Source: Sporolactobacillus laevolacticus DSM 442 (GTDB lineage: Bacteria > Bacillota > Bacilli > Bacillales > Sporolactobacillaceae). Taken from it: a stretch of DNA of 64,000 nt. The notes beneath the pieces were generated by a model, which saw nothing but the letters and a program-made list of their open reading frames with translations, did not search any database and had not been told where the DNA came from. Positions 29,112-59,879 of the stretch are shown here, one piece after another. The first letter of the stretch is position 1. The number at the start of each line of letters is the position of its first letter. Position numbers and translations under genes: made by a program. Location of the stretch: positions 85,269-149,268 of the forward strand of contig NZ_AWTC01000008.1 of NCBI RefSeq assembly GCF_000497245.1, read 5' to 3'.

Positions 29112-29129
29112 GAACTCAATTAAATAAAT

Positions 29130-29231
29130 CTTATCAAGAGTGGCGGAGGGACTGGCCCGACGAAGCCCGACAACCAGCACAGATTGTGTGTATGGTGTTA
29201 ATTCCAGCAGATTAAGTTCTGGCAGATAAGA
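29130..29231 (+). ncRNA. SAM-I (S-box) riboswitch
   Basis: P1 pairs CTTATC (29130) with GATAAG (29225-29230). Between them lie the S-box hallmarks AGAGTGGCGGAGGGACTGG, CCCGACGAAGCCCGACAACC and GGTGTTAATTCCAGCAG. It is followed by a terminator hairpin (29244-29288), so SAM should switch off the downstream sulfur gene. Confidence 0.95.
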
Positions 29232-29243
29232 AAAGAATCGGCG

Positions 29244-35701: not shown

Positions 35702-36652
35702 TTAATTTTGGTATTTTCTCGACTCTTCTTTAAGATGGACAAGATCCACAAGCATCGAATGATAGGGCGCTTGTAGTCCGTGTTTTTCAGCAAGACGGAC
35801 AATGGCTCCGTTAATATAATCAACTTCTGTCGGCCTGTTGGTAGTCATATCCTGATGCATCGATGGGTAGTGCAGAGGATTACCGACTTGAGAAACATAC
35901 ATAACCTGATCAACAAGCTCATCGCGTGTCACTTCCATTTTAAATCCTTCAGCGTCAATGGCTTCATACGCTTCATAAATCAGTTTGCGCGACATTTCTT
36001 TTGCATTCTTATAGGCTGCGAATTCGCCCATTTTCATGTTCATCAGTGTACACAGCGTGTTCACTACCGAATTAAAGACAAGCTTGGTCCAAACCGTACC
36101 CATATAATCTTTTTGAACAGTTGGATTCATGAGCGCTTTTTCCATTTCAGCAGCAACTTTATAGATGAATTCATTAGGTTCGCCTTCTACACGAACAATA
36201 TGAACATGGCCGGCGCCACGTTTTCCGATAAAGTCAACCTTTCCAGGACCTTTCATGACCGTAGCGATCATTGCCGTACCTGCGATGATTCGTTCACGCG
36301 GCACAAATTGAGCGATATATTCAGCACCACCAAAGCCGTTTTGGTTGGTCATTACATAAGTATTTTTGCTAATGAAGTGCTTGCACCTTTCCATGGTCTC
36401 AACCGTATGCATATCTTTGATAAAAACAATTGCCAGCTCGGGTTCTTCATGATATTCCTCAGGATAGCTGACGCTAATCTCTGCAAAACGCTCATCTTTA
36501 CCATCACGCCAGACCGTAACGCCGCCGTTCTTCTTAATCGCTTCAACGTTAGGCTCCCACGTGTCTACGAAATGAACATCATTTCCGGCCTCTTGTAAAA
36601 GCACGCCGTACCTTAACCCCATTGCTCCTGCTCCAATAACAACAATTTTCAT
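35702..36652 (-). CDS. panE: 2-dehydropantoate 2-reductase (PanE/ApbA) family protein
   Basis: 316 aa. NADP site MKIVVIGAGAMGLRYGVLLQEAG, then the KDMHTVE and MTNQNGFGG blocks and the catalytic Lys in GTVWTKLVFNSVVNTLC (near 190). PanE makes pantoate from ketopantoate; in lactic acid bacteria relatives instead reduce branched-chain 2-oxo acids to hydroxy acids. ATG 36652 has AAAGGAG 9 nt upstream. It is preceded by a 260-nt leader encoding a Leu/Val/Ile-rich peptide and an attenuator, so expression is predicted to respond to branched-chain amino acids. This fits both candidate functions. Confidence 0.85.
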   Translation of the reverse strand: MKIVVIGAGAMGLRYGVLLQEAGNDVHFVDTWEPNVEAIKKNGGVTVWRDGKDERFAEISVSYPEEYHEEPELAIVFIKDMHTVETMERCKHFISKNTYVMTNQNGFGGAEYIAQFVPRERIIAGTAMIATVMKGPGKVDFIGKRGAGHVHIVRVEGEPNEFIYKVAAEMEKALMNPTVQKDYMGTVWTKLVFNSVVNTLCTLMNMKMGEFAAYKNAKEMSRKLIYEAYEAIDAEGFKMEVTRDELVDQVMYVSQVGNPLHYPSMHQDMTTNRPTEVDYINGAIVRLAEKHGLQAPYHSMLVDLVHLKEESRKYQN

Positions 36653-36721
36653 CCTTCTCGTCTCCTTTTTCTGTGTAACGGACAAAAAGCGCCTTCCTTT
36701 TCTTCGAAGTATCCAGTCCAA

Positions 36722-36760
36722 TTAAAAAGCCCCATCCAGTTGATTCTGAATGGGGCTTTA
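36722..36760 (-). terminator. Attenuator terminator upstream of panE
   Basis: RNA arms AAAGCCCCA (36751-36759) and UGGGGCUUU (36726-36734) followed by a U run. The 5' arm and loop also form the 3' arm of the competing hairpin 36743-36779, so only one of the two can exist at a time. Confidence 0.85.
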
Positions 36761-36832
36761 CCCAAGTCCCATTCAGAACGAAGAGGACTCAAGCACATGC
36801 GATCGATTAAACGATTGATGTACCCGAGTCCT
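36743..36832 (-). promoter_or_regulatory. Mutually exclusive attenuator hairpins of the panE leader
   Basis: In RNA order: hairpin A pairs 36818-36832 with 36784-36798, starting at the leader-peptide stop. Hairpin B pairs 36784-36794 with 36760-36770. Antiterminator C pairs 36768-36779 with 36743-36754 over 11-12 bp. A excludes B, B excludes C, and C excludes the terminator. A ribosome at the stop codon masks the 5' arm of A and favours B and termination; a ribosome stalled on the Leu/Val/Ile codons leaves A free and favours C and readthrough. Confidence 0.75.
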
Positions 36833-36878
36833 AACTAATCAAAATGACGACTAATTCATTCGCTTTTGAACGGAACAT
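36831..36878 (-). CDS. Leader peptide of the panE attenuator
   Basis: 15-codon frame, ATG to TAG, translating as MFRSKANELVVILIS. Codons 9-14 are TTA GTC GTC ATT TTG ATT, i.e. six branched-chain amino-acid residues in a row just before the stop. AAGAAGG lies 7 nt upstream of the ATG, and the promoter is about 40 nt upstream. The stop overlaps the 5' arm of hairpin A. Codon content, position and pairing are all those expected of a ribosome-stalling leader. Confidence 0.75.
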   Translation of the reverse strand: MFRSKANELVVILIS

Positions 36879-36919
36879 ATAAAGACCTTCTTGAAAGACT
36901 ATTTTTTGTGAGTGTCGTT

Positions 36920-36948
36920 AGTTTACACGATGAACATTCTGATGTCAA
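36920..36948 (-). promoter_or_regulatory. Promoter of the panE leader transcript
   Basis: Minus-strand TTGACA (36943-36948), 17-nt spacer, TAAACT (36920-36925). Transcription should start near 36912, about 34 nt before the leader peptide. Confidence 0.8.
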
Positions 36949-37009: not shown

Positions 37010-37215
37010 TAAGAAAAACCGGGCAAAAAGCTCCCGGTTCGTACTCCCGCAAGACGCGGTGACTGGGCACTAACCTTGACTACGCTCCGATTGCTCGCAT
37101 CAACAGGTGCGGCCGCGGGCGATCCGTGAGCCTCCTCAGACAGGCGGTAATCTGCGGGGTATCACTTGGCTCGCAGTTCTCGCAGAAGTCTCGCATCTGC
37201 GCGTTTGATCATCAA
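37010..37215 (-). repeat. Bacillaceae-type dispersed repeat (copy 2) with terminator-like tail
   Basis: The minus strand reads GCGAGACTTCTGCGAGAA, then ACCCCGCAG, TGTCTGAGGAGGCTCA, CGCCCGCGG and GTTGATGCGAGCAA, matching the copy at 57165-57285. Downstream on that strand is a hairpin AACCGGG/CCCGGTT followed by TTTCTT (37015-37042). No coding frame is seen in 36949-37252. Confidence 0.7.
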
Positions 37216-37306: not shown

Positions 37307-38332
37307 TTATTTTGCAGCTGGTTCAGGAAGTTCAACTTCAGCGCGTCCGAGGCTTTCACCTTTAAGTGCTGCATTGAAGTTGTCATAGCTTGTAGAAATC
37401 ATGTTTGAAACGGCTACATCAGTCATCGCTGCAACGTGAGGTGTGATCAATACCTTTGGATACAGTTCAATCAATTCCTTGATTGTTTCATCAGGGAATT
37501 CACTGCCGTCGGAGAAGTCTTTACCGAAGAAGCGAGCTTCGTCAGTCAGAACGTCTGCGCCGAAGCCTTCGAGTTTGCCGCTCTTAATTGCTTTTGTAAC
37601 TGCAGCTTCGTCAACGATTTCACCGCGAGCGGTATTGATCAGGATCGCGCCGTCTTTCATTTTGCTGATGAATTCTTCGCCAACAAAGTTTTCATTCTTT
37701 CCTGGGAAGTAAGGAAGGTGCAGGCTGACGATATCCGATTCAGCAAGCAGTTCATCAAGTTCTTTAAAATCAACTAATTTCTTAGCACGATCACTTTGGA
37801 AGATGTCATAGCCGAGCAATTTAGCGCCAAGGCCTTTGTACAACTCAGCTTCAACACAACCGATGTTACCAGTTCCGACGATACCAACGGTGCATTTGTG
37901 AACTTCGTGGCTGAACATTGTTTCTGTAACAGTAAAGTTCAATTTAGCAGTTCTGCCGGTTGTATAAACCGTGTGGCGAAGCAAAGATGTGCCAAGGTAT
38001 ACAGCAAGTTCGGCAATCGCATTAGGTGAATAAGCAGGAACGCGGGCAACCTTAAGGCCAAGATCAGAAGCAGCCTGAAGATCAATGTGGTTAAATCCGG
38101 CAGTACGTGTGAATACATATTTGATGCCATATTCATTGAATTTTTCAAGGTTCGCACGGTCTGCAAGGCAGTTAACGAACAACAGTACACCGTCATGACC
38201 CTTCGCAAGATCTCCATTGTCGGCAGTCAGCAAGTCATTGACCAACGTTAATTCGTAACCGTAATTATTCAGTTCACTGTACAAATGTTCTTCGTAAGGT
38301 TCAACACCATACGCAATGATTTTAAAAGCCAT
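37307..38332 (-). CDS. ldhD: D-lactate dehydrogenase
   Basis: 341 aa D-isomer-specific 2-hydroxyacid dehydrogenase. NAD site VGIVGTGNIGCVEAELYKGLGAKLLGYD (near 146); the catalytic Arg is in NTARGEIVDE, the Glu in DVLTDEARFF and the His in TPHVAAMTD. It reduces pyruvate to D-lactate, the main fermentation product of Sporolactobacillus. ATG 38332 lies 10 nt after AGGAGG and gives the MAFKIIAYG start. Monocistronic, with a Rex-like operator 87 nt upstream. Confidence 0.93.
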   Translation of the reverse strand: MAFKIIAYGVEPYEEHLYSELNNYGYELTLVNDLLTADNGDLAKGHDGVLLFVNCLADRANLEKFNEYGIKYVFTRTAGFNHIDLQAASDLGLKVARVPAYSPNAIAELAVYLGTSLLRHTVYTTGRTAKLNFTVTETMFSHEVHKCTVGIVGTGNIGCVEAELYKGLGAKLLGYDIFQSDRAKKLVDFKELDELLAESDIVSLHLPYFPGKNENFVGEEFISKMKDGAILINTARGEIVDEAAVTKAIKSGKLEGFGADVLTDEARFFGKDFSDGSEFPDETIKELIELYPKVLITPHVAAMTDVAVSNMISTSYDNFNAALKGESLGRAEVELPEPAAK

Positions 38333-38418
38333 GCTCAAACATCCTCCTAAAGAAATTTATTCTACACCTGATGTTTCTGAACACCAGGGCTGTAACCTGA
38401 TACGCATTGGAACCTGTT

Positions 38419-59744: not shown

Positions 59745-59764
59745 GGTTTCACTGAAATCCTAGT

Positions 59765-59862
59765 TTTATCTTCCAGATTTGCATCTGATGGATTTAGCAC
59801 CTTCCGCAATGCGGGGTTGCTGAAGTATCGTCGGGCCAGTCCCTCCACTTCTCTCGATAAAA
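59765..59862 (-). ncRNA. SAM-I (S-box) riboswitch
   Basis: On the minus strand P1 is TTTATC/GATAAA. The core reads AGAAGTGGAGGGACTGGCCC, GACGATACTTCAGCAACC and GGAAGGTGCTAAATCCATCAG. This matches the S-box core seen at 29130. SAM binding should allow the downstream terminator to form and silence the methionine synthase gene. Confidence 0.94.
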
Positions 59863-59879
59863 GATTAAATTGTTTATTG

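Follow-up and report, generated by a model that had tools for sequence, protein, structure and literature searches.

What controls the PanE/ApbA-family oxidoreductase gene of Sporolactobacillus laevolacticus DSM 442, and to which metabolic signal does this control respond? The gene lies in a window of 64,000 nucleotides (the whole stretch of DNA that was analyzed) and is preceded by a leader that combines a short open reading frame rich in Leu, Val and Ile codons with a series of alternative hairpins. The original prediction was that of a ribosome-mediated branched-chain amino acid (BCAA) attenuator. Based on the comparisons described below, we assign a probability of about 0.86 to the reading that the element is a ribosome-mediated transcription attenuator sensing the charging of Leu, Ile and Val tRNAs, and that it belongs to a family also preceding ilvD and genes for PanS-like transporters; this mechanism is strongly indicated by comparison.

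Ribosome-mediated BCAA attenuators have already been described in Firmicutes, namely in Staphylococcus aureus (PMC5794164) and Listeria (PMC5864092), and, as far as the accessible parts of these reports go, those described so far reside at ilv-leu operons. Leaders of actinobacterial ilvB are also known (PMC1262725, accessible part). In Sporolactobacillus a single attenuator has been copied to multiple places of the genome, among them those of a 2-oxo-acid reductase and of transporters, in an organism with T-box leaders at leuS, ileS, valS and leuA. The element was not found in a literature search on panE with leader-peptide attenuation and on Sporolactobacillus leader peptides, the coverage of which mostly excluded subscription journals. 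The family provides some 40 naturally varied versions of a single switch, with a predicted inverted default that can be tested, as well as a functional clue for a “PanE”-annotated enzyme in known D-lactate producers.

The leader of the PanE-family gene

The minus strand from 36948 to 36653 carries a promoter, a Shine-Dalgarno sequence, a leader open reading frame of 15 codons and the hairpins A to D, all 5' of the PanE/ApbA-family gene:

36920-36948, minus strand: promoter TTGACA-17-TAAACT, 10 of 12 consensus matches
36886-36892, minus strand: Shine-Dalgarno sequence AAGAAGG of the leader peptide
36831-36878, minus strand: leader open reading frame MFRSKANELVVILIS, stop codon TAG
36837-36854, minus strand: control codons TTA GTC GTC ATT TTG ATT (Leu Val Val Ile Leu Ile)
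36785-36831, minus strand: hairpin A (segments 1:2), whose 5' arm has the final base of the stop codon as its first
36759-36796, minus strand: hairpin B (segments 2:3), which uses the 3' arm of A and competes with A and C
36743-36779, minus strand: hairpin C (segments 3:4), putative antiterminator, which competes with D
36724-36759, minus strand: intrinsic terminator D (segments 4:5) with T run, from folding
36653-36670, minus strand: ribosome-binding region of the PanE-family gene
35702-36652, minus strand: PanE/ApbA-family oxidoreductase gene, 316 aa (TIGR00745, 232.1 bits, cut-off 141.35)

Sequence reading and a promoter scan placed the promoter, the Shine-Dalgarno sequence and the leader with its six Leu/Val/Ile codons where they had been predicted, and RNA folding confirmed, likewise in the predicted places, mutually exclusive hairpins followed by an intrinsic terminator. 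Six such codons in a row at this given place have a probability of about 2e-4 (base rate of Leu/Ile/Val codons in the window, 0.242), and the leader (273 nt) folds with z = -6.0 relative to 200 dinucleotide shuffles. Promoter-like sites in the region were no more frequent than by chance (5 observed, 6.4 expected), so the promoter consensus by itself is weak; TTGACA is kept in 14/14 panE leaders with a slice long enough (L011 included, L012 being too short), with a variable -10 element. D was missed by a terminator scan of the region, probably since some of its T run pairs within the stem, and it is folding that reveals it.

A genus-wide family of elements

The leader and its peptide were present at panE in 15/15 Sporolactobacillus genomes searched, and the comparison of related leaders proposed with the original prediction thus recovered the Leu/Val/Ile run throughout; a 16th genome, THM7-4, also has the panE leader, with the run broken by one Thr according to the reading of its sequence. 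A covariance model built from the panE leaders (R1) detected further copies in the same genomes with E values from 2e-10 to about 1e-6, with a layout comprising a Shine-Dalgarno sequence, a peptide of 13-19 codons, or more in the copies with CAG in place of the stop, and hairpins A to D. A second model (R2), built from 39 elements, produced 44 matches at E <= 5.3e-8 spread over all 15 genomes: 15 at panE, 16 at ilvD (one of them a remnant), nine divergent from ilvB, three at PanS-like transporters and one at a gene without Pfam or NCBIfam match. Another 13 weaker R2 rows lay between 1e-4 and 1e-3. The leader noticed at panE is real and conserved, and its main point had been read correctly, but it does not stand alone: judged by these comparisons, it is one member of a genus-wide family of BCAA attenuators in Sporolactobacillus.

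Beyond the genus, R2 had no match at E <= 0.001 in 11 other genomes of the family (one 75% complete). A search of 397 genomes of the order at E <= 1e-4 returned matches in the genus and a single one outside it (G207, 8.6e-6), which was rejected on reading of its sequence. With R1, matches at E up to 0.01 occurred in 17 non-genus genomes among the same 397; ten of these genomes were read, none had such a leader peptide, and several of the matches resemble gene-end terminators. These order-level sets contained 10 of the 15 Sporolactobacillus genomes and were searched with stricter filters. In 18 upstream regions of paralogous PanE-type genes (G007:C33 left out) there was no open reading frame with at least five consecutive Leu/Ile/Val codons, and the leader was seen at neither of two 62%-identical orthologs in the sister genus.

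Covariation of the hairpins

Pairing in the hairpins is conserved and covarying across 39 copies, as had been anticipated for a genuine set of stems. The proportion of paired cells was 95.1% for A, 89.7% for B, 82.6% for C and 99.0% for D, and cells changed on both sides numbered 54, 28, 21 and 80, respectively, compared with shuffled means of 19, 9, 12 and 22 (for C, 2 of 500 shuffles reached 21; helix B was counted solely in the panE register). The covariation score of each helix was reached by 0/500 shuffles, counts that, given the relatedness of the rows, are not readable as probabilities and that come from tests which are not independent, since some segments are common to several helices. 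When pairs with two-sided change were counted in the 39 elements there was no clear excess for B (90/500 shuffles) or C (84/500), nor was there for further pair types (B 381/500, C 191/500). The 15 panE-type rows alone covaried clearly only in D (0/500), with C reached by 7/500, B by 26/500 and A by 103/500 shuffles.

Proposed mechanism and default state

Under the preferred reading, when BCAAs are plentiful the ribosome would reach the stop codon that abuts hairpin A and cover the 5' arm of A; segment 2 would then pair with segment 3 (B), leaving segment 4 free to form terminator D. A ribosome stalled upstream at a Leu, Ile or Val codon would allow A to form, so that segment 3 would pair with segment 4 (C), D would be blocked and RNA polymerase would read into the gene. 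The leader had been described as following textbook trp/ilv logic, and this holds for the sign of the response (starvation leading to readthrough) but probably not for the default, as the arrangement of five segments predicts that an untranslated leader folds into A plus C. The RNA that is free without a ribosome is the same as with an upstream-stalled one, and readthrough by default is accordingly what the pairing model predicts in the absence of translation.

In the trp, his and ilv leaders of Escherichia coli, the control codons lie within segment 1 and an untranslated leader terminates. The Sporolactobacillus element would share with them the choice between exclusive hairpins according to the position of the ribosome on the control codons; it differs in that the codons lie upstream of segment 1 and that it is the finished ribosome that would mask this segment. 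The Rli60 element of Listeria monocytogenes is likewise a ribosome-mediated attenuator with a short BCAA-rich leader peptide (13 aa) before ilvD, but in the accessible part of its description it has four segments instead of five, and loss of leader translation lowers its expression (“super-attenuator” mutants), contrary to the readthrough predicted here (PMC5864092). It differs further from the Sporolactobacillus element in that the latter occurs in several copies, one of them at a PanE-family gene. The S. aureus ilvD attenuator resembles the present one in its run of Leu/Ile codons, its terminator, its ilvD target and the lack of a T-box, and it differs, in the part of the report available, in a peptide of 26 aa, an antiterminator whose suggested partner is the U tail and its location at an ilv-leu operon (PMC5794164).

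A variant of the same attenuator, compatible with the main claim, would terminate by default as trp and Rli60 do, C being too weak unaided, so that only a ribosome stalled at the right place, possibly assisted by a pause of RNA polymerase or by a protein, would bring about readthrough. In agreement with this variant, D exceeds C in stability in 16/16 panE leaders, and mutating the start codon or the Shine-Dalgarno sequence of the Listeria leader reduces expression (PMC5864092). Against it stand the pairing scheme, which gives the upstream-stalled and the ribosome-free RNA the same free sequence, and the fact that C covaries. We consider this variant possible, if not what we would expect.

A home-made and crude model of co-transcriptional folding, with K0 set to 1e5 per s, 0.03 s allowed for each nucleotide and 0.5 s for the terminator, supports the mechanism only partly. 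In 11 of 15 panE leaders D fell by at least 0.3 when A was free compared with a ribosome at the stop, the exceptions being L006, L013, L015 and L019 (L014, identical to L013 in this part, was left out); D with A free exceeded 0.9 in 4/15 panE leaders and 0.5 in 17/25 other elements, as termination by default would have it. Among these 25 elements six switched and four were reversed, and with slower rates (K0 1e4, 0.05 s), applied to the same 25 non-panE elements only, five switched and five were reversed. The small number of switching elements among these 25 and the reversed cases count against the attenuator reading, as does the weakness of C in L013, L014, L015 and L019, four of the 16 panE leaders, where it has only -7 to -10 kcal/mol. 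A ribosome covers about 16 nt from its P site. With a footprint of this size, a simulated stall at codon -3 left D at 0.99 or more in 13/15 panE leaders; since a stall at this place already opens A far enough for D to form, the most conserved codons, which are nearest to the stop, would not act as predicted.

A broader proposal can be built on these elements, namely that of a multi-copy regulon of inverted parity that originated in Sporolactobacillus, in which termination needs a finished ribosome at the stop and either BCAA shortage or lost leader translation induces ilvD, 2-oxo-acid transporters and a D-2-hydroxy-acid dehydrogenase, BCAAs being rebuilt from scavenged 2-oxo and D-2-hydroxy acids. 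We put it forward tentatively, at somewhat less than even odds.

Control codons and the leader peptide

A leader open reading frame with a match to a loose Shine-Dalgarno pattern was found in 43/43 leaders read, the 44th strong copy having neither. Counting back from the stop codon, Leu, Ile or Val codons occupy positions -2, -3 and -4 in all 43 leaders, a run at a fixed place before the hairpins, as well as position -5 in 42, -6 in 16, -7 in 26 and -8 in 13; further upstream they occupy -9 in 4, -10 in 6 and -11 in 5, with a base rate in the window of 24%. These 43 rows include near-identical species and do not amount to 43 independent events. Every leader has Ile at codon -2 and either Leu or Ile at -3; positions -4 and -5 show exchange among all three residues, and the codon just before the stop can be S, I, N, T, C, Q or L. 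The lone non-Leu/Ile/Val codon at -5 belongs to the leader of the ilvD remnant. Two features count against the attenuator reading: the invariant Ile at -2 exceeds what a pure constraint on the BCAA class would need, and CAG takes the place of the stop, with the peptide extending into A, in G009 and G010 (at both panE and ilvD) and in THM7-4 (at panE).

The pattern of conservation bears on a second explanation, according to which the hydrophobic C-terminus of the nascent peptide (ILIS or IIIS) would stall the ribosome at or near the stop on sensing a small molecule and force termination, uncharged tRNA not being the trigger. The invariant Ile at -2 is in line with such an arrest, as are the strong conservation of the last codons, which in the panE leaders extends to silent positions (15/15 have TTGATT), and the stop codon abutting hairpin A, where an arrested ribosome would matter. 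Arrest peptides, however, usually keep exact residues, and here Leu and Ile are swapped at -3, all three residues alternate at -4 and -5, the pre-stop codon varies and THM7-4 has TTA and a Thr, which makes peptide arrest improbable. A ligand-binding riboswitch or another peptide-independent RNA switch with an incidental open reading frame, as the strong alternative helices and one degenerate copy without peptide might suggest, is very improbable considering the Shine-Dalgarno-like sequence and in-frame Leu/Ile/Val block with constant spacing to hairpin A in 43/43 leaders, the variable loop of A among copies and the fact that neither the panE nor the ilvD element reaches the cut-off of any Rfam family.

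One copy deserves separate mention, as it too counts against the attenuator reading: the transporter element of G011 (L172:3390-3488, minus strand; G011:C5:13889) is degenerate, having lost its leader peptide and part of hairpin A.

Genes behind the elements

Returning to the tRNA-sensing attenuator, its target ilvD lies in the pathway of the amino acids presumably sensed. The ilvD of the window genome is well identified (TIGR00110, 783.9 bits, cut-off 618), and tblastn located ilvD genes 89-100% identical to it, with the element upstream, in all 15 genomes. The presence of the same element before ilvD makes a BCAA signal much likelier than a chance series of hydrophobic codons, and together with the conserved codon run and the covariation of A to D it supports the BCAA attenuator originally proposed; the link of the PanE-family gene itself to BCAA metabolism would follow from this company. 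The window genome has one element (C5:178665; L135:4666-4771) leading ilvD and a PanS-like BASS transporter directly behind it, and another (C5:181807; L135:7808-7911) leading a second PanS-like BASS transporter. Both transporters match PanS and BASS models with scores below the curated cut-offs, and the transporters that follow the elements in G004 and G011 share 75-76% identity with that of the window genome (tblastn).

The nine divergent elements all adjoin ilvB on the opposite strand (L090:7628-7730, minus strand, and those in L129, L133, L139, L140, L142, L143, L169 and L170). Downstream of them there is a well-placed strong Shine-Dalgarno sequence and a fast-evolving open reading frame, without Pfam match in the one tested. 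The ilvD element itself adjoins ilvB in G006, G007 and G014, as does the element of the remnant in G005, so ilvD was perhaps once divergent from ilvB and the nine orphan leaders were left behind when it moved. On its own strand, the ilvB-ilvC-ilvA operon showed neither a T-box nor a run of at least four Leu/Ile/Val codons in a short open reading frame. The G005 element (L141:3719-3826, minus strand; G005:C1:1835718) precedes an ilvD remnant of 52% identity over 96 residues beside ilvB, apparently a decayed ilvD duplicate. In L130 (G010:C1:968741) the alignment of the ilvD behind the element is split into two overlapping parts that differ in reading frame, which may reflect a frameshift or an error of sequencing.

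Role of the PanE-family enzyme

The gene had been taken to encode a ketopantoate/2-oxo-acid reductase. Membership in the PanE family is upheld by TIGR00745, the sole model over its cut-off (the other 15 models among the matches listed are below theirs), and an ortholog occurs in 15/15 Sporolactobacillus genomes with 76-100% identity. The nearest solved relatives (2ew2, 8wl1 and 3wfi; E 1e-46 to 1e-52) were deposited as 2-dehydropantoate 2-reductase. They belong with the PanE-family D-2-hydroxy-acid dehydrogenases, such as Lactococcus PanE and Enterococcus D-mandelate dehydrogenase. Lactococcus PanE acts on branched-chain 2-oxo acids.

The ketopantoate part of the original assignment is unlikely. 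A panB gene was found in 0/15 Sporolactobacillus genomes (controls 11/14) and panC in 10/15, which points to a truncated pantothenate pathway in the genus, and the window genome (L094, G000:C21) has panC followed by a gene read by eye as panD, with no separate open reading frame of at least 100 aa beside them that could be panB. Since panB was found in none of the 15 genomes, the gene is probably not for pantothenate synthesis and ketopantoate synthesis is disfavored as its role, although the product may use imported ketopantoate. The absence of panB, along with the company of ilvD and transporters, makes a role on branched-chain acids likelier, and the enzyme probably interconverts branched-chain 2-oxo and D-2-hydroxy acids. 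As to why shortage should induce a reductase, our guess is that D-2-hydroxy acids are oxidized back to BCAA precursors.

Directly upstream of the attenuated gene, positions 37307-38338 (minus strand) encode a protein of the D-2-hydroxy-acid dehydrogenase family (D-lactate/VanH-like models, below cut-offs), and a terminator-like stem was seen by eye near 37030, at this gene.

T-boxes and other leaders of the same genome

It had been assumed that Firmicutes mostly use T-boxes for BCAA control, a view that has to make room for the ribosome-mediated attenuators of S. aureus and Listeria (PMC5794164; PMC5864092). The T-box model RF00230 had no match within the window; elsewhere in the genome it matched 19 stretches at E <= 0.001. 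Of these, 12 exceeded the cut-off; T-boxes precede leuS, ileS and valS, and a match that stays below the cut-off precedes leuA. As attenuator copies occur in the same genome, both systems coexist.

Weak matches to the element (E 1e-4 to 4e-3) precede a transporter read by eye as of the MFS type in G000 (L137:2626-2739, minus strand; G000:C1:68125), G014 (L148:2226-2329; G014:C4:12725) and G007 (L173:2818-2936, minus strand; G007:C3:49317). These loci have a longer leader open reading frame of other sequence (28 codons in G000 and G014), possibly that of a different attenuator, and the G000 copy is near the leuA T-box. The window contains, in addition, two adjoining Bacillaceae-1 RNAs (Rfam RF01690) at 3-66 and 105-172, and two SAM riboswitches at 29128-29232 (plus strand) and 59763-59863 (minus strand).
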